Source: a virus
Virus record (IMG/VR): IMGVR_UViG_3300046787_000428
Location: 1 to 42,683 of that record
Length of the DNA stretch: 42,683 nucleotides
Reading direction: 5' to 3' (one strand)
Shown: piece after piece, positions 6,684 through 37,577 of the stretch
How the letters are laid out: every line of letters starts with the position of its first letter
How positions within the stretch are numbered: position 1 is the first letter of the stretch
Position numbers and translations under genes: made by a program
The notes under the pieces: generated by a model
Told to the model about the DNA's origin: nothing
Databases searched by the model: none
The model's input: only the letters and a program-made list of their open reading frames with translations

Positions 6684-8211
6684 AGACTCATTCGACCTAC
6701 AAGACGTCCTACTCCAACTAGGAGAAGGACTATCTGAGTCTGTCCACACCCCCAACCTCTACGACTACAAAGCCTCAGATAAGCAGCAACTATTTCACCA
6801 AATGCAACAAAAAGCCCGCCTATACATTGGCGGTAACCGTTCAGGAAAGTCCCTCGGCTCAACCATCGAAGGCATCTACTACGTCACCAAAACCCACCCG
6901 TTCCGCAAAATGCCAGACGAACCAGTGCGAGGCCGTGTCGTAGCCGTTGACTTCTTGAACGGTGTTGATAAGATTATCCTTCCACTATGGAAACAATGGC
7001 TGCCCAAAAAATACCTAATCAACGGTAGTTGGGAACAGTCATACAGCCGTGAACGTCACGTTCTAACCCTAAACAATGGGTCATTCGTAGAGTTCATGTC
7101 CCAGGACCAGGACCTCGACAAGTTCGCAGGTTCATCACGCCATTTCGTGCACTTCGACGAGGAGTGCCCTAAATCAGTCTGGCTGGAATGTTTAGCCCGT
7201 CTTGTCGATACAGACGGAGACTGGTGGATGTCACAGACCCCTGTGCAAGGAATGGAATGGATTTTTGATGACGTTTATCAGCCTGCCAAAGATGGCACCA
7301 AAGACATCGGCATTGTTGAAGCAAGCATGGAGGATAACCCTTCGCTTAGTAAAGAGGCCATTGACAGGTTCATGGAGAACCTCAGTGAAGAAGAGCGTCT
7401 CATCCGCAAGAACGGACAGTACATCCATCTTGGCGGTTCAGTCTTTCCAGAATTCAGCCCTGTTACACACTGTATACCTAGAGGGCAGTTCAAACCCACT
7501 GCAAGACATCGAATTATTCGAACAATGGATTCGGGATACACCAACCCCACAGTCTGGCTGTGGATGGCAGTTGACGAAGATGGAACTATTGTCGTCTTCA
7601 AAGAGCATTACCAATCGAAATGGAATGTTGAGCAGCACGCCCAGGTAGTGAACCGTTGGACCAAGGAAATCCTCAAAGAGTCTGGCGCAGAACTCTTCCT
7701 CACTACAGGTGACCCAGCCATCAAACAAACCAAAGAGCACACTGGCACGTCTATCCTGCAGGAATACGCCAAGCACGGCATCTATCTGGCTGTGGATAAC
7801 ATCCCTACAGACCGCCGAATTGGGTTAGAAAAGATTCAGCAATACATGAAAATCAACCCAAAAACTAAAAAACCTTACCTAATGATTACGGACGACTGCC
7901 CACAACTAATTGCAGAACTCCCTAAACTAAAATGGAAAAAACACGCATCTGCTAGAGTGGCAGAGCAAAAGAATAAACTAGAAGACATACGAGACAAAGA
8001 CAATCACTGCTATGATGCTCTTAAGTACGCCATGACATTCATGGACGACTTGACACCAGAGAAGCAGTTCAGTGCTTCCAAACGAGACGAATTCCACCGT
8101 GAGTTCAGAGGACACTTCGGGGCAACCGAAAAGTTCAAAGAATACGATGATTCATCCGAATGGGGCGACAATTGGCGAGGCGTAGCCTCAGTTAGAGAGT
8201 TAGAAGGATGA
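6676..8211 (+). CDS. terL: Terminase large subunit
   Basis: The 511-residue packaging motor has an N-terminal ATPase with Walker A GGNRSGKS at residues 52-59 and Walker B HFVHFDEE with D161/E162. The C-terminal RNase H-like nuclease has candidate metal ligands D285 (TMDSGYT), D346 (TTGDPAIK) and D447 (DNHCYDALKYAM). It cuts and translocates concatemeric DNA into proheads through the portal. No small terminase lies next to it; the best candidate is on the minus strand at 27203-27925. It overlaps both neighbours by a few bases. Confidence 0.95.
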   Translation: MAKDSFDLQDVLLQLGEGLSESVHTPNLYDYKASDKQQLFHQMQQKARLYIGGNRSGKSLGSTIEGIYYVTKTHPFRKMPDEPVRGRVVAVDFLNGVDKIILPLWKQWLPKKYLINGSWEQSYSRERHVLTLNNGSFVEFMSQDQDLDKFAGSSRHFVHFDEECPKSVWLECLARLVDTDGDWWMSQTPVQGMEWIFDDVYQPAKDGTKDIGIVEASMEDNPSLSKEAIDRFMENLSEEERLIRKNGQYIHLGGSVFPEFSPVTHCIPRGQFKPTARHRIIRTMDSGYTNPTVWLWMAVDEDGTIVVFKEHYQSKWNVEQHAQVVNRWTKEILKESGAELFLTTGDPAIKQTKEHTGTSILQEYAKHGIYLAVDNIPTDRRIGLEKIQQYMKINPKTKKPYLMITDDCPQLIAELPKLKWKKHASARVAEQKNKLEDIRDKDNHCYDALKYAMTFMDDLTPEKQFSASKRDEFHREFRGHFGATEKFKEYDDSSEWGDNWRGVASVRELEG

Positions 8212-27925: not shown

Positions 27926-28446
27926 AACAACACCTTCCCCCTCAAATCCTCAAGACTACCATCATTCAAAATCACAGCATTAAAATCAAACCCAGCCAAA
28001 TCAGACTCAGACACATGCCCATTCACAGCACCAACACCAGGACGCACAACCTGCCAAACAACACCACCACGCTCACGAATAGCCTCAGCCTCATTCAAAA
28101 AACGCACATCCGTAAACACAACATCCTCATCACCCAACCCCCTAAACGCCTGCTCAACCCAAAAATCCTCACCAAACAACTCACGACCAACATCAGTCCC
28201 AAAACGCTGCAACAACACACGCACCCCAGGAGCACGCACCTTCAAACCCTCCCAAGACCCCAAAAGGTAAAGAGCATCCATCAAAGGCATAACACCATTC
28301 ACCGTATCCACCAACGGATTCAAACGACACAAAGCCTGACGCATCGGCGTAGCAAAACTCCTACGCACAAACCCCTCAGACACCAACACAGCCCCAACAC
28401 TATCCTTACCCGAACGAGCAAACCCCGCCAACCCAACATCAACCAC
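27904..28446 (-). CDS. Deoxynucleoside monophosphate kinase
   Basis: I choose the GTG at 28446 because GGAGG lies 9 bases upstream and the frame before it is not coding-like. The 180-residue product begins MVDVGLAGFARSGKDSV with a P-loop at residues 8-16. It continues with FGTDVGRELFGEDFWV and VVFTDVRFLNEAEAI, as in T4 gp1-type dNMP kinases. It phosphorylates dNMPs to dNDPs for phage DNA synthesis. It overlaps the XRE regulator by 8 bp and the next gene by 22 bp. Confidence 0.88.
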   Translation of the reverse strand: MVDVGLAGFARSGKDSVGAVLVSEGFVRRSFATPMRQALCRLNPLVDTVNGVMPLMDALYLLGSWEGLKVRAPGVRVLLQRFGTDVGRELFGEDFWVEQAFRGLGDEDVVFTDVRFLNEAEAIRERGGVVWQVVRPGVGAVNGHVSESDLAGFDFNAVILNDGSLEDLRGKVLLCLKNLM

Positions 28447-28927
28447 GACGCAAGCCCTCCAACGCAACCAAATACTCAGGACTAAGCCCCAACCCCGAAA
28501 CAAGCCTACCCGCCAACACATCACCCATAGCCTCCACACGACCCTCCTCAAACTCACGCACAACCGCAGGATTCAACCTCAACAAACTAGCAAACCCAGT
28601 CACCGTCGGAGCAAACTCACGACGCCACTGACCAAACGTGCCATAATACTGACCCAACGTATACGGAGGAATCAACAACAAATTCTGAGCAGCAGGCTTC
28701 AAAACAGGACGCACAGGCGCATCCCACCAAGCAAGCACATCACTGAGCAACTGCTTCGGATTCTCACTCAGCACAGCCAAAATCCTGTCACTAGGCACAC
28801 GAGTCCTACCATCCTCAACAGCAGTAACAGCAGAACGCTGCACACCAGCCAACACAGCCAACTTATTCTGCGACAAACCACGAGAAATCCTAGCCACCCT
28901 CACAGGATGGTCAACAATACGAGCCAT
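28439..28927 (-). CDS. XRE-family helix-turn-helix regulator
   Basis: The N-terminal ~55 residues of this 162-residue protein form a Cro/CI-type HTH (ISRGLSQNKLAVLAGVQRSAVTAVEDGRT). A second HTH-like helical segment near residues 105-150 follows (TVTGFASLLRLNPAVVREFEEG). As first gene of the minus-strand operon, next to a divergent early promoter region, it may control the early/late switch. The ATG has no Shine-Dalgarno but has TAGTAT 6 nt upstream. Confidence 0.88.
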   Translation of the reverse strand: MARIVDHPVRVARISRGLSQNKLAVLAGVQRSAVTAVEDGRTRVPSDRILAVLSENPKQLLSDVLAWWDAPVRPVLKPAAQNLLLIPPYTLGQYYGTFGQWRREFAPTVTGFASLLRLNPAVVREFEEGRVEAMGDVLAGRLVSGLGLSPEYLVALEGLRRG

Positions 28928-28939: not shown

Positions 28940-28989
28940 ATAGACAAGTGTTGTAAAACGCAAATATCCAGGACGAGTGCTAGATATAA

Positions 28990-29075
28990 GGGGACGGCTG
29001 GAATCTTGGTACAACATCGCAGGCGATAGATTTGTTTTGTCAGCAGGGAGGTGCCCTGCTGGTAGGAGGGTAAAA
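28990..29075 (+). promoter_or_regulatory. Early leader element, copy 1
   Basis: The block begins with GGGGACGGCTGGAA and ends at ATG 29076, exactly 86 nt later. It contains a short ATCGC-AG-GCGAT hairpin and an 8-bp stem CAGCAGGG / CCCTGCTG (29041-29061). The loop of that stem is AGGTG, directly ahead of the GGAGGG ribosome-binding site. TATAAG at 28985 is a possible -10 overlapping the motif. Copies 2 and 3 start 30217 and 30817. Confidence 0.6.
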
Positions 29076-29435
29076 ATGCCACTTATTGGAAATGCGACAC
29101 AGGTCGAGGGCTGGGAGTCATTCAGCCACGAGGACAAGGAGATTGTTCACAACTACTGCTTGGTCTTGATGGGCATCGGTATCGGTGAGGTCGAGGCTGG
29201 CAATGTTGGCGAGATTGTGTTTCGAACCAGAATGTTGCAGGGCATCGTTGGCAACTTCTTTTATGGTGAGCCAGCCAAGGCGATAGAGAACGTCAGTTTT
29301 GTGAACCGTCTTGTTGGCTACCGTGCTAACGTGCCAACTGAGGCTTGGGCTGTTTGGTCTAAGCGTGTCCACAATATCCACGCTGGTGAGTATCAGGCGA
29401 TTGCCAAGCGATTGGCTCAGCCAGTACTGGCTTAG
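29076..29435 (+). CDS. First early-arm protein, unknown function
   Basis: The start at 29076 has GGAGGG upstream; the longer open frame before it is the leader element. The 119-residue product (MPLIGNATQVEGWESFSHED...) is mainly helical, with a segment LVLMGIGIGEVEAGNVGEIVFRTRML and a C-terminal basic helix. No domain was recognised. It heads the plus-strand early arm and is probably expressed immediately after infection. Confidence 0.75.
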   Translation: MPLIGNATQVEGWESFSHEDKEIVHNYCLVLMGIGIGEVEAGNVGEIVFRTRMLQGIVGNFFYGEPAKAIENVSFVNRLVGYRANVPTEAWAVWSKRVHNIHAGEYQAIAKRLAQPVLA

Positions 29436-29503
29436 GTTTCACCACCTGAGCATGTGGCTAAACTGCTCACCACAAAACAAACAACTATGGAGGGTAAAAA
29501 GAA

Positions 29504-30148
29504 ATGAATGAACAAATTGTTAAGCCAGTTGCAACTGCTGAGGTCGAGAAGTTCCTTGGCCTTTGGGAAAAATACAACGCACTGGTGTTGAATCACCGCT
29601 GGTCTAGTCTTGAGCGTTATGGGCGTGATTACATCGCTTTGATTGAGATGAATGATGCCATTGCTGAGGATGTGGTGAACAGCCTGAACCCAATTCTTGA
29701 ATTGGGTGAGGCCATGAAGTTGCTTGGTGATGATGTTGCCAAGGCTGCCACCGAGTACCAGTCTTTGCTTTACCACTACAACCGTGCCGTGCAGGACGAG
29801 GCTGAGAAGCCTCGCCGTGATTGGGAGCAGGCCAGAGATGAGATGATTGCCACGTTCAAGAAGGAGGAGCGCAGTCTCTCAATCAAGTTGGGCAAGTTGG
29901 GCAACAAGCGTTGGACTGGCACCGAGGTTGAGAAGGCCTACATTGAGGAGCAATACAAGTTGCTCAATGCCCGCAAGCAAATCGTCGAGTTGACGCTCAG
30001 CGATTTGCAGTACATGCGATACAGCGAGCACGAGGGAACCGAGTTCACCATGGAGTTGGTTGCTGAGGCTGTTGAGTTGCGTCGTGAGCGCATCAATCAC
30101 CTGATTGCAGAGTTTGGTGTTGCTGCCTTGCAAGAGGTTGACGCCTAA
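29504..30148 (+). CDS. Coiled-coil early protein, unknown function
   Basis: This 214-residue protein is almost entirely charged helix, with long coiled-coil stretches (VQDEAEKPRRDWEQARDEMIATFKKEERSLS and AYIEEQYKLLNARKQIVELTLSDLQY). GGAGGG with A-rich spacing precedes the ATG, as in other genes of this arm. Residues around 40-70 carry an amphipathic helix. No catalytic motif is visible; a host-takeover or scaffold-like role would be guesswork. Confidence 0.78.
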   Translation: MNEQIVKPVATAEVEKFLGLWEKYNALVLNHRWSSLERYGRDYIALIEMNDAIAEDVVNSLNPILELGEAMKLLGDDVAKAATEYQSLLYHYNRAVQDEAEKPRRDWEQARDEMIATFKKEERSLSIKLGKLGNKRWTGTEVEKAYIEEQYKLLNARKQIVELTLSDLQYMRYSEHEGTEFTMELVAEAVELRRERINHLIAEFGVAALQEVDA

Positions 30149-30157
30149 TAGAGTTAC

Positions 30158-30302
30158 CCCCTAACCGCCCTGAGCATGGCGTAAAAAGGCTCAATAATCA
30201 TGCCCTGCGGGGCTTAGGGGACGGCTGGAATTGTGTGTTGCGTGGCGGGGCTTGTAGTTTTGTGTTGTCGGCAAGGTGTCGACAGATTAGGGAAGGTAAA
30301 AA
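30158..30302 (+). promoter_or_regulatory. Early leader element, copy 2, with predicted three-way junction
   Basis: GGGGACGGCTGGAA at 30217-30230 lies 86 nt before the GTG at 30303. Upstream, CCCCTAA (30158-30164) can pair with TTAGGGG (30214-30220). This encloses TGAGC/GCTCA (30171-30193) and a GCCC-TGCG-GGGC hairpin (30202-30213), a three-way junction shape. Downstream, TGTCG/CGACA (30266-30284) places AGGTG in a loop before the GGGAAGG ribosome-binding site. Confidence 0.55.
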
Positions 30303-30455
30303 GTGAACAACTACAAGGCAACAAAGGAAGAAATCATTACGGCTATCGGTGTCATTGCTGAGTGCCTAGCACCTACCAGCGCAACACGACAGACCTGCGA
30401 CATGTTGCGTGAACTTTATGATGAACTAGACAACGAAACTGAGGAGGCAAACTAA
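30303..30455 (+). CDS. Small early protein, 50 residues
   Basis: The GTG start follows GGGAAGG. The product (MNNYKATKEEIITAIGVIAE...) has a helical N-terminus, two cysteines and an acidic end. Its stop overlaps the next ATG (TAATG), which argues that it is translated. No family was recognised. Confidence 0.65.
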   Translation: MNNYKATKEEIITAIGVIAECLAPTSATRQTCDMLRELYDELDNETEEAN

Positions 30456-30754
30456 TGAGCGTAGTCGCTTACCAGAGCAAGGCAACCATGAAAGAGGCCG
30501 AGGAATTGCTGGCAGAAAAATTCGCTTTCAATGCTGGCAGTCTCACCGCAAAAATGGAATACATCGATTTAGGCGAACCTGCCCCGATTTATGCCTATGT
30601 TGTGAGGTCTTACGGCGTGGCAATCGCTATTCATGGCAGTGATTCGTTTGCGGACGAGTATTTCAAGCATATTCGTTTTGATGCTTATGACCACAGCACG
30701 ACGACAAGCAAGCATGCCAATATGGTGAAAAGGGCGTGGCAACTAGACAACTAA
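30455..30754 (+). CDS. Early protein, unknown function
   Basis: This 99-residue mixed alpha/beta protein (ATMKEAEELLAEKFAF, then PIYAYVVRSYGVAIAIHG) is coupled to the preceding 50-residue gene by a one-base overlap, with GAGGAGG at good distance. No motif was recognised. A strong terminator follows it. Confidence 0.72.
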   Translation: MSVVAYQSKATMKEAEELLAEKFAFNAGSLTAKMEYIDLGEPAPIYAYVVRSYGVAIAIHGSDSFADEYFKHIRFDAYDHSTTTSKHANMVKRAWQLDN

Positions 30755-30764
30755 ACAAGCCCCG

Positions 30765-30801
30765 AAAGTCCCGCCAGTTCCCCGCTGGCGGGACTTTCTT
30801 T
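30765..30801 (+). terminator. Strong intrinsic terminator
   Basis: A perfect 13-bp stem AAAGTCCCGCCAG / CTGGCGGGACTTT with a 7-nt loop is followed by TTCTTT-type sequence. An outer AAGCCCC (30757-30763) can also pair with GGGGCTT (30809-30815), which lies inside leader copy 3, so termination may be linked to that leader. Confidence 0.88.
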
Positions 30802-30904
30802 GCCCTGCGGGGCTTAGGGGACGGCTGGAACCCTGTGTTGCGTCGCCCTGCTGGCATAGTGGGCTGTGTAGCGGAACTGATAGACAAACAGGGCAGGCAA
30901 TAAA
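30801..30904 (+). promoter_or_regulatory. Early leader element, copy 3
   Basis: The 30 bases from 30801 to 30830 are identical to 30201-30230 (exactly 600 bp upstream), and TGTGTTGCGT follows in both. The shared core GGGGACGGCTGGAA at 30817 lies 88 nt before a GTG at 30905. GCCCTG (30845) can pair with CAGGGC (30889), which overlaps the GGGCAGG ribosome-binding site. The element lies just after a terminator. Confidence 0.55.
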
Positions 30905-30970
30905 GTGAAAATTTCGGTAATTGCAGGGCGGGATTGGCTAGTGGTTTTTCGTTATGTGTTTGTTATCTAA
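30905..30970 (+). CDS. Possible 21-residue peptide after leader copy 3
   Basis: A GTG at the position equivalent to the start codons after copies 1 and 2 opens a frame MKISVIAGRDWLVVFRYVFVI ending at TAA 30968-30970. It is hydrophobic/aromatic. It may be a real micro-protein, a leader peptide, or a decayed gene; its length gives little support. Confidence 0.3.
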   Translation: MKISVIAGRDWLVVFRYVFVI

Positions 30971-31047: not shown

Positions 31048-31404
31048 GTGGCTGTTATGAGTAAGGAACAAAAGGCTCAAGATTTTGAGCGTGGTTTGGA
31101 GTTGTTGGGTTATCTTGCCGAGAATTTCAGGTCTGGTGAGGCTCGTCTTGTTATTGGTGCTGATTATGGCAAGGGGCTGACTGATTATTTCAGGGTGCTT
31201 GCGGTGTATAAGGATGATGCGGGGCGAATTCAGACCGCTAATTTAACTTGGGCTATTGCTAAGGTTTTGGGGTTTTCTTTGCGGGATAGGAACGGGGCTT
31301 GGTTTCTTGCGTTGAATGGTGGCGGTTATTCTAAGCCGTTTGAGATTGTTCGCCATTTGGCTGGGTTTTATGGTGTGGAGGGTATTCGTCATGAGAGCCT
31401 CTAA
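31048..31404 (+). CDS. Early protein, unknown function
   Basis: The GTG start has GGAAAGG 7-8 bases upstream; an ATG three codons later is an alternative. The 118-residue product contains GLELLGYLAENFRSGEARLVIGADYGKG and a glycine-rich WFLALNGGGYSKPF, a mixed alpha/beta composition. No function can be assigned. Third positions are strongly G/T-rich, like the rest of this arm. It overlaps the next gene by 14 bp. Confidence 0.72.
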   Translation: MAVMSKEQKAQDFERGLELLGYLAENFRSGEARLVIGADYGKGLTDYFRVLAVYKDDAGRIQTANLTWAIAKVLGFSLRDRNGAWFLALNGGGYSKPFEIVRHLAGFYGVEGIRHESL

Positions 31405-32418: not shown

Positions 32419-33048
32419 GTGGCTAAAATGTTTGACCCTGAGTTTGGGGAGATGGTGGACATTCGGGAGGTTTCTCGTTTGACTGGGTTGTCTGTGCATC
32501 AGTTGCGTTCGTGGCGTAAGCCTGAGTTTGCTCATTTGGCTAGGTTTGAGACTTATCGGTCTCCGTTGAATTCTGCGGTTTGGTATCGTTTGGCGGATGT
32601 TGAGTTGTTTTTGCGGGAGCAGGGCATTGTGGTTGGTGCTAGTGGGTTGAGGCGTGATGCTGATTTGCCTTCGGCTTTTCGTGCGCCTTTGGCTGTGCCT
32701 GTGGGTGAGGATGTTCGGCGGGCTTTGGTTGAGTTGGCGGACATTACTACTGAGACTATGTGGTTGAGGTGGAGTAATCGTTTGAGTGATGCTTTGCAGG
32801 TTGAGTATCCTAAGCAGTTGAAGCAACATCAGGCTCGCCTTTATGCTTTGTGGGCTGGTGTGGATGTTGAGGGTTTGCCTGTGTCTGTGCCTTTTGGTTT
32901 GAAGAGTGAGCATCCTGAGCAGTTTTATGTTGGGAATGTGTTGGCTTATCGTCGTATGTTGGCTGATTTGCGTGGGTGGAATGTTGGCGATGAGGAGTTG
33001 TTGGGGTTGCCTGTGGGTGATGTTCCGCCTACTAGGGAGATTAAGTAG
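32419..33048 (+). CDS. MerR-like DNA-binding protein
   Basis: The GTG start follows AAAGG. In this 209-residue protein residues ~12-70 form a MerR/excisionase-type winged helix (VDIREVSRLTGLSVHQLRSWRKPEF, then WYRLADVELFLREQGI). The rest is helical without a metal-binding pattern. Two long palindromes lie immediately upstream, suggesting autoregulation or origin binding. Replication initiator, transcription regulator and recombination directionality factor are alternatives; no integrase was seen. Confidence 0.78.
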   Translation: MAKMFDPEFGEMVDIREVSRLTGLSVHQLRSWRKPEFAHLARFETYRSPLNSAVWYRLADVELFLREQGIVVGASGLRRDADLPSAFRAPLAVPVGEDVRRALVELADITTETMWLRWSNRLSDALQVEYPKQLKQHQARLYALWAGVDVEGLPVSVPFGLKSEHPEQFYVGNVLAYRRMLADLRGWNVGDEELLGLPVGDVPPTREIK

Positions 33049-35728: not shown

Positions 35729-37251
35729 TGGGGTTAGTGGAGGAGGTTTTGTTTCCGTATCAGATAACGGCTGCTGAGCGTATCGCTGCTCAGGGTAGGT
35801 TGTTGTTGGCTGACCAGCCTGGGTTGGGTAAGACTTTGGAGGTGTTGGGTGGTTTGGAGTTGGCTGGGTTGTTTGATAGGCCTTCTGCGATTTTGATTGT
35901 GACACCGATTGTGAATGCTCAGACCACTTGGCGTGATACTTTGGAGCGTTTTGTGAAGAGGTTCCATGACATTGTGGTTGTGGATGTGTCGGTGGGTAGT
36001 GCTACGGTGAAGGCTAAGGCGTTTCGTGCTGGCATTGTTGAGAGTGTTGAGTCTGGTAAGCCTACGGTGTTTTTGGTGAACCATAATGGTTTGGATTGGG
36101 TGAAGGACTCTCACCGTGTGAAGGGTTTTGATGACATCAGGTTTGATGCTGTTGTTGTTGATGAAAGCCACATGGTGTTGCCTATTCGTATGGGTGGGGG
36201 TGTGACGAACTTTTGGCGTGGGTTGGCTAGGTTGCGTATGCCTGAGGGTTGTGTTCGTGTGGCTGTGTCTGGTACTCCTGACCGTGGGAAGTTGGAGAAC
36301 AGGTTTGGCACTTGGCGGTTTTTGTTTGGTGATGTTGTTGGGCATGATTTGTGGAAGTGGTTGGGTGATTGGTTTTTCATTGTTGACCAGCGTGTTTCTA
36401 AGAGTCGTGTTGTGAAGATGGTTGCGGGTTTACGTAAGGAGAAGGAGTGGGTTGAGCGTGACCGTGTGTGGATGTTGCGTCGCACTAAGGCTGAGGTGTT
36501 GACTCAGTTGCCTCCTAAACGTTATGTGGATGTTGAGGTTGAGTTGTCTGGTCGTGAGCAGGCTAAGTATTTTGGTGCTCAGATGGTTTATGAGGAGCAG
36601 TTGCGTGGTGGTGACCATTCGGGTGCTATGACGTTTGCTTTGAGGTCTCGTCAGTTGGCTACTTGTAGTTGGGATGACGGGTGGGAACCTGTTGTTGGTG
36701 AGGTTTCCGCTAAGTTGGAGTGGTTGGTTGAGTGGTTGTCTGAGCGTGGGTTTGTTGAGCGTGATGACATGGCTGATAATACGGCTAAGGTTGTGATTGT
36801 TTCTCAGTTCAGTAAGGTTTTGCGTTGGGTGCAGAGGGAGTTGAAGAGTATTGGGGTTGATGCTGTTGTTTTGGATGGGTCTGTTGGTAGTGGCGAGCGT
36901 GCTAGTATCCAGAACGATTTCCAGACGGGCAATTTACGTGTGGTTTTGTTGTCTGGTTCTATGGGCGTTGGTATCAATTTGGATGCTGCAGACGATTTGA
37001 TTATGTTGGATTTGCCGTATGACCCTGATAGGGTTGAGCAGATTGAAGACCGTGTGCATCGTGCGTCTAGCAATCATCAGGTGACGATTTGGAATGTTGT
37101 TGCTAGGGATACGATTGACCAAGTTATTTTGGAACGTGTGTCGAAGCGTTACAAGATTACTCGTGAGTTGTTAGATGGTAGTCGTGGTGTTGATTTTGCT
37201 CGTGAGGTTATGGCTATTGTTGTCAAGGAGAAAATGGAGGATGAGGAATGA
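35728..37251 (+). CDS. SNF2/SF2-type DNA helicase
   Basis: The ATG at 35728 (CAGGAG upstream, overlapping the previous TGA) gives 507 residues. Motif I DQPGLGKT is at 29-36, motif II DESH at 145-148, SGTP at 181-184, and QIEDRVHRASS at 438-448, the order of SNF2-like helicases. These use ATP to translocate on duplex DNA, remodelling or opening it. It lies between small genes and whiB; a role in phage replication or recombination is likely. Confidence 0.92.
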   Translation: MGLVEEVLFPYQITAAERIAAQGRLLLADQPGLGKTLEVLGGLELAGLFDRPSAILIVTPIVNAQTTWRDTLERFVKRFHDIVVVDVSVGSATVKAKAFRAGIVESVESGKPTVFLVNHNGLDWVKDSHRVKGFDDIRFDAVVVDESHMVLPIRMGGGVTNFWRGLARLRMPEGCVRVAVSGTPDRGKLENRFGTWRFLFGDVVGHDLWKWLGDWFFIVDQRVSKSRVVKMVAGLRKEKEWVERDRVWMLRRTKAEVLTQLPPKRYVDVEVELSGREQAKYFGAQMVYEEQLRGGDHSGAMTFALRSRQLATCSWDDGWEPVVGEVSAKLEWLVEWLSERGFVERDDMADNTAKVVIVSQFSKVLRWVQRELKSIGVDAVVLDGSVGSGERASIQNDFQTGNLRVVLLSGSMGVGINLDAADDLIMLDLPYDPDRVEQIEDRVHRASSNHQVTIWNVVARDTIDQVILERVSKRYKITRELLDGSRGVDFAREVMAIVVKEKMEDEE

Positions 37252-37577
37252 CTGGTAAGTTGTTAGGTGATGGGTTTGAGCATCGTGAGTTGATGCGTTT
37301 GTATGCTGCTTTGGATAAGGAGGAGTGGCAGGTTCCGTGTGTTCAGGCTCCTGATTTGTATTTCCCTGAACGGCCTGAACATATGAAGGCTGATGTGAAG
37401 GGTGATTTGGCTTTGGCTAACATGGCTAAGGATGCTTGTTTGGATTGTCCTGTGATGATGTTGTGTTTGGAGGTTGCTGTGAATACTCGTCGTGAGTATG
37501 GTATTTGGGGTGGCACTAATTGGCATGAGCGTAAGGCTATTATTCGTGAGCGTAAGAAAGTGAAGAAGGTTGACTAA
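37248..37577 (+). CDS. whiB: WhiB-family iron-sulfur transcription regulator
   Basis: This 109-residue protein has the four WhiB cysteines C31, C64, C67 and C73 (CxxC-x5-C) that ligate a [4Fe-4S] cluster, the YGIWGG turn at 84-89, and a basic C-terminal DNA-binding tail (ERKAIIRERKKVKKV). WhiB proteins are essentially confined to actinobacteria and their phages, so this is the best host clue. They bind the principal sigma factor and may redirect host transcription. It overlaps the helicase by 4 bp. Confidence 0.95.
   Translation: MTGKLLGDGFEHRELMRLYAALDKEEWQVPCVQAPDLYFPERPEHMKADVKGDLALANMAKDACLDCPVMMLCLEVAVNTRREYGIWGGTNWHERKAIIRERKKVKKVD

Follow-up and report, generated by a model that had tools for sequence, protein, structure and literature searches.

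The 14-mer GGGGACGGCTGGAA, which recurs in the 42.7-kb IMG/VR phage record analysed here (the window, taken as a whole), is rather likely to be the asymmetric operator of a regulator with two helix-turn-helix (HTH) domains, probably an activator, at early promoters that lack a −35 element and whose mRNAs would open with a 5' hairpin. To judge from the sequence, the three repeats look like DNA binding sites upstream of promoters rather than parts of one RNA switch. Computation across related phages reveals a conserved and uniformly oriented motif, a preferred offset to the −10 element, a missing −35, covarying hairpins, and co-evolution of the motif with a recognition helix of the regulator.

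The model that best fits these observations begins with the two-HTH regulator, encoded divergently beside copy A, which would bind an operator at each early promoter. This operator would lie about 24 bp upstream of the −10-like hexamer, i.e. at roughly −50 to −37, and the bound regulator would recruit host RNA polymerase. An oriented site at this distance from the −10, together with the missing −35, makes an activator at a class II-like position the most likely arrangement. Transcription would begin some 7 nt past the hexamer, right at the base of the hairpin, so that early mRNAs would start with a stem-loop, probably for stability or an open ribosome-binding site. Binding, activation rather than repression, and the transcription start are what we infer; the features involved are collected in the table.

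Table. Positions of the described features in the window.
Feature	Position	Strand	Details
Divergent regulator gene	28439..28927	−	162 aa, two XRE-type HTH domains (Pfam HTH_31/HTH_3)
TAGACA	28941..28946		conserved throughout the A regions, 30-34 nt ahead of GCTA
GCTA	28979..28982	+	conserved 5-7 nt ahead of the motif in A copies
Putative operator copy A, GGGGACGGCTGGAA	28990..29003	+	motif scans, relatives
ACAACAT	29011..29017	+	A copies only, between motif and −10
−10-like hexamer TAGATT, copy A	29027..29032	+	motif +38
5'-terminal hairpin, predicted A transcript (start ~29039)	29040..29062	+	−15.6 kcal/mol, z −3.1
First early gene	29076..29435	+	119 aa, no family
H-type pseudoknot E1	29442..29468	+	CCAC-CT-GAGCA-T-GTGG-CTAAAC-TGCTC; 6 nt past the preceding gene's stop codon
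H-type pseudoknot E2	30166..30192	+	CGCC-CT-GAGC-AT-GGCG-TAAAAAG-GCTC; upstream of copy B
Putative operator copy B	30217..30230	+	motif scans
−10-like hexamer TAGTTT, copy B	30255..30260	+	motif +39
5'-terminal hairpin, predicted B transcript	30266..30284	+	−9.6 kcal/mol, z −4.2
Intrinsic terminator	30766..30796	+	stem AAGTCCCGCCAG..CTGGCGGGACTT, tail TCTTT; 20 nt upstream of copy C
Putative operator copy C	30817..30830	+	motif scans; without clear hairpin or nearby gene start

The repeated motif and its predicted promoter context

An earlier note, made from the letters of this DNA, had placed the 14-mer at 28990, 30217 and 30817. Exactly these three copies exist, all on the + strand and all between genes in the early region of this actinobacterial phage contig, and the 42.7-kb window holds no fourth match even at up to three mismatches. 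An estimated 3e-4 exact matches to a random 14-mer would be expected in 42.7 kb, which puts three copies far beyond chance. The 30 bases said to be shared by the second and third copies are indeed identical (30201-30230 and 30801-30830) and form part of a 46-nt repeat with 91% identity. ATG 29076, GTG 30303 and GTG 30905 do lie 86, 86 and 88 nt from the motif, but the third does not stand as a start codon. Since its ORF has only 21 codons and lies inside another conserved element, and the next ORF of at least 40 aa after copy C begins at 31048, the third distance is probably accidental.

Motif scanning of IMG/VR, a looser scan, and searches with TerS-like and HTH protein alignments gathered about 42 syntenic relatives, with two to five copies each where enough sequence is present. 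All listed copies in them are oriented towards the early genes. Copy A occupies the intergenic region between the HTH gene and the early genes, the first copy always lying beside the HTH gene, and B and C copies are found further right. Beyond the 14-mer the consensus is roughly GGGRAYGRNTGGAA, followed in B and C copies by TGTG; at five copies (L163, 977 and 1617; L170, 476, 1444 and 3225) the run after the motif consists of TGATGCTGATGATG-like repeats, not TGTGNGTTG. The fixed distance to the start codon proposed earlier did not survive this comparison: the kind of variation that the note itself had named as evidence against its idea is found in the relatives, at 84-226 nt for A copies and 57-307 nt for B copies.

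The second early protein recovered no relatives, the phage collection held no near match to the region, and a search through TerS for prophage or host genomes found none. Distant matches of one relative in the phage collection were discarded as short, lying within coding sequences and apparently of low complexity. Most loose-pattern matches in other viruses are due to chance and set in different contexts. Leftward of the HTH gene lie genes for a deoxynucleotide monophosphate kinase, a conserved protein read as TerS-like, and an M23 peptidase. Elsewhere in the contig a portal protein, major capsid protein, large terminase, tail proteins, helicase, exonuclease and primase/polymerase are recognised, and a WhiB-family transcription factor gene (37248-37577) points to an actinobacterial host.

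Downstream of the motif, a TANNNT hexamer peaks at +38/39 in the main motif class (13/28 A copies and 16/51 B copies), while TAGNT stands at +43 in 9 of 21 B copies of a second class, GGGAATGA. The gap from TGGAA to the hexamer is constant only within classes, at about 24, 28 or 35-37 nt. At 16-18 nt before the hexamer, where a −35 was sought, there are 2.3 matches to TTGACA against a background of 2.5, and in line with this missing element a sigma-70 promoter scan of the region found none. The exceptions are some B copies of three relatives (L168, L169 and L175) with a canonical TTGACA-N18-TANNNT, at which no activator would be needed. Many B and C copies, including copy C of the window, have no clear −10 or hairpin.

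Upstream, a terminator or the pseudoknot E described below lies within 90 nt of 61 of the 76 downstream copies, compared with 23 of 198 random positions. The spacing to the motif is typically 20-35 nt, and no promoter-like sequence lies between terminator and motif in the downstream copies, so a new transcript must begin near or after the motif. Pairing of the motif with its own downstream flanks (−10.50 kcal/mol) equals its pairing with swapped flanks (−10.45 kcal/mol). Taken together, the variable start distance, the −10 offset, the missing −35, the lack of flank pairing and the upstream terminators favour a promoter/operator.

Two other roles were rejected by inspection: pairing of the motif with terminator loops (CCCC with GGGG), as the loops do not follow the GGTGACGG variant, and TAGACA as a −35, as its spacing to −10-like sequences is inconsistent. 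Many terminators in these phages have CCCC loops. In L170 the A motif runs into a strong terminator-like hairpin, pointing rightward and no more than about 50 nt away, so that only a very short RNA could be made there.

The surroundings of copy A contain further conserved elements. ACAACAT, nearly invariant in A copies at 6-17 nt after the motif, may be an operator or some other element that only the first promoter has. GCTA, TAGACA and ACAACAT could belong to a further, upstream promoter, whose transcript would then include the A motif. A second module, TAGACA ... AAATTT(T)-GG ... GGCTAG, occurs at 28941-28982 and 30881-30940 of the window; most relatives carry it before copy A and also, with longer spacing, after copy C.

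The candidate two-HTH regulator and the predicted 5' hairpin

The candidate protein for binding the motif is the product of the divergent gene, which is kept next to copy A in the relatives. Its AlphaFold2 model has two HTH domains (mean pLDDT 91.9), with helices at residues 20-38 and 109-127. In a profile search of PDB sequences, the N-terminal half matches phage repressors and residues 95-137 match the MBF-like 2mez. Foldseek returns single-domain XRE proteins (434 Cro, SinR and C proteins), all with E above 0.1.

Motif copies agree at 13.0 of 14 positions within a phage and at 11.4 of 14 between phages. One phage-specific variant common to all copies of a phage is what a trans-acting factor would be expected to produce. 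On a regulator tree built without the second recognition helix, changes in that helix fall on the same branches as changes in the motif: in 12 phages R124S goes with G to A at motif position 4, in 3 phages R124K and a further change at 125 go with G to T at position 3, and in 8 phages P120A goes with C to T at position 6. No more than three branches show such co-changes, and in L170 position 4 carries the 'other' base in two copies. Across the relatives, TGGAA hardly varies, and nor does the first recognition helix. Because second-helix changes track changes in the 5' half of the motif while TGGAA and the first helix stay nearly constant, the variable 5' half would be read by the C-terminal HTH and the invariant TGGAA by the N-terminal one.

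The hairpins that the earlier note drew for copies A and B fold as described, the one at 29040-29062 with AGGTG in its loop. Their z-scores (see table) were obtained with folding cut at the predicted transcription start; whole leaders of 89-90 nt are unremarkable (z −1.25, −0.61 and −0.07 for copies A, B and C). The structure claimed for the third copy is not confirmed on the same measure, its 90-nt leader folding no better than shuffles. Among 56 non-redundant copies with a −10-like hexamer, hairpins begin 10-14 nt past the hexamer start (+11 in 24 copies, +12 in 28 and +13 in 25, against 0-4 at most other offsets), a statistic somewhat favoured by the choice of hexamers, which were picked by pattern within motif +35 to +48. 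Less affected by that choice is an arm-exchange test, in which 68% of copies form a strong hairpin from their own arms and 28% (maximum 40%, 200 swaps) do so when the 3' parts are swapped. The compensatory change suspected earlier is supported by this result. RNAalifold detected no structure in a plain MAFFT alignment, owing to variable loop lengths and misaligned arms, and the arm-exchange test was used instead.

Given where the covarying stem lies, the hairpin would form the 5' terminus of the predicted transcripts. Hairpins that stabilise mRNAs of bacteria and phages from the 5' end, ahead of the ribosome-binding site, are known, ompA being one example. The predicted stem-loops share with them a start at, or a few nucleotides from, the mRNA 5' end; they differ in being tied to a repeated operator-promoter module and in having arms that covary among copies.

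Alternative readings and known systems

The closest functional precedent is found in the cluster A mycobacteriophages, in which a monomeric repressor uses two domains to bind an asymmetric site, with site orientation tied to transcription (PMC9283540); that system confers superinfection immunity and halts elongation. Both systems have short, asymmetric, intergenic sites in one orientation relative to transcription (stoperators of L5 and TipsytheTRex, about 13 bp; here a 14-bp motif co-oriented with the early genes), one protein with two DNA-binding domains (here predicted), and site variants that differ between phage groups. Other features differ. Cluster A genomes carry more than 20 sites genome-wide, as opposed to three in the 42.7-kb window and two to five per relative. 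The sites here lie just upstream of −10 elements, and the second domain of the regulator looks like a second XRE HTH. The regulator has no tblastn match in 50,697 phage records, and the cluster A repressor is absent from its PDB profile matches, which are generic XRE proteins. The module may work like cluster A repressor/stoperator pairs; with homology undetected and with site number and placement different, it is not filed as a member.

This precedent gives weight to a reading in which the same protein and sites serve repression, the motif being the operator or stoperator through which an immunity-type repressor would keep early transcription silent or stop read-through into the early operons. 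The regulator gene lies divergently beside the early genes, as a repressor gene would, and the canonical promoters in L168, L169 and L175 need no activator. Repression nevertheless appears unlikely, if worth keeping in mind: the sites stand upstream of the −10 and not over it, they are three and not more than 20, the main motif classes have no −35, and no integrase (PF00589, PF00239) was found in the contig, which may be incomplete. It is quite improbable that the motif is a promoter element for another factor, such as a host alternative sigma factor, the phage WhiB-like protein or a MerR-like protein (32419-33048). WhiB proteins often act together with the principal sigma factor; the contig has its WhiB match and weak MerR matches, and MerR-like homologues occur in L006 and L013. 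However, the phage-specific motif variants track the recognition helix of the adjacent HTH protein on the tree, which argues against a host sigma factor in particular, as this would not change so unless the hosts differ.

Very unlikely is the view taken in the earlier note, of a structured RNA leader that controls early translation, whether riboswitch-like or protein-binding, with the 14-mer as its conserved 5' part. The downstream hairpins do covary, the motif always lies upstream of genes in the same orientation, and a TAGACA/TATAGA-like stretch upstream of A copies could put it in a transcript. Against this stand flank pairing no better than with swapped flanks, a start distance of anywhere from 57 to 307 nt, and downstream copies that come after terminators with nothing promoter-like between. 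The note had recognised no riboswitch or other RNA family, and it was right: none of the Rfam 15 covariance models reaches its gathering threshold, the single match (E 0.82) being due to chance, and a known family was rejected on this search.

The start-associated sequences (SAS/ESAS) of cluster K mycobacteriophages are likewise asymmetric repeats of 13-14 bp, found upstream of small non-structural genes; SAS sit 3-7 bp from the start codon and have been proposed to act in translation (PMC3203893). The present motif shares their length, asymmetry and single orientation, but it tracks promoters, and its distance from the start codon (57-307 nt) rules it out as one of them.

Pseudoknot E and the meaning of the module

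The RNA novelty of the region is probably not the repeated leader but the pseudoknot called E. In the window it occurs twice between the motif copies, spans 27 nt and reads S1(4)-CT-S2(4-5)-1/2 nt-S1'-A-rich loop-S2'; its S1 in the relatives takes the forms CGTC/GACG, CGCC/GGCG, CGAC/GTCG, CCAC/GTGG, CATC/GATG and more. A search pattern with one S1 pair left free found E in at least 120 viral stretches and 58 contigs of bacterial genomes, and among the matches listed 156 of 163 have a Watson-Crick pair at the free position. With S2 left free in a second pattern, S2 pairs in 101 of 129 listed matches, 100 of them at the same offset and in 31 combinations; with swapped 3' parts it pairs in 32%, a control inflated by common sequences.

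Among the matches listed, E lies within 60 nt after a long ORF in 119 of 145 cases (background 26%), and its start peaks 5-6 nt after the stop codon (55/158). Read-through at E was rejected as a general explanation, the in-frame extension after the stop having a median of 19 codons. Rfam has no family matching E apart from matches in tmRNA-like loci, and a literature search found no description of it. In two cases E lies at the 5' region of a tmRNA, confirmed by Rfam in L310 and assigned by similarity in L319; among these loci is the 5' part of a Nautiliaceae tmRNA. E shares with the PK1-type pseudoknots of tmRNA and with viral recoding pseudoknots a compact H-type fold, a short L1 and an A-rich L3. 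Unlike them, it sits 5-6 nt after the stop codons of unrelated genes and has, on average, no long read-through or frameshift extensions. It seems likely, on these grounds, that E is a very large RNA family absent from Rfam, present in unrelated phages and bacteria, usually 5-6 nt past a stop codon, where it would act on terminating ribosomes or mark and protect the ends of mRNA segments in operons.

Two neighbours of E may be recorded. In B regions a small hairpin with a C-rich loop precedes it (in the window at 30153-30165, GTTACCCCCTAAC), with a covarying stem (GTTA/TAAC, GCTA/TAGC, CTTG/CAAG). In a Polynucleobacter MAG contig (L293), E directly precedes a hammerhead ribozyme detected by Rfam; hammerheads lie there at 7271-7325 and 7541-7595 on the − strand.

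The overall verdict is that the repeats are a promoter/operator module of a known kind and that E deserves separate study. If the model is right, an uncultured group of actinobacterial phages controls its early genes through one two-HTH protein and an asymmetric operator, at promoters whose mRNAs open with a hairpin. Base changes in the operator could then be read against helix changes across dozens of phages, giving a second, independent case of site-specificity evolution in a protein with two unlike HTH domains. E may matter more than the operator, given its fixed distance from stop codons in many phages and bacterial phyla: a structured element so placed would point to an unstudied step in translation termination or mRNA end formation.
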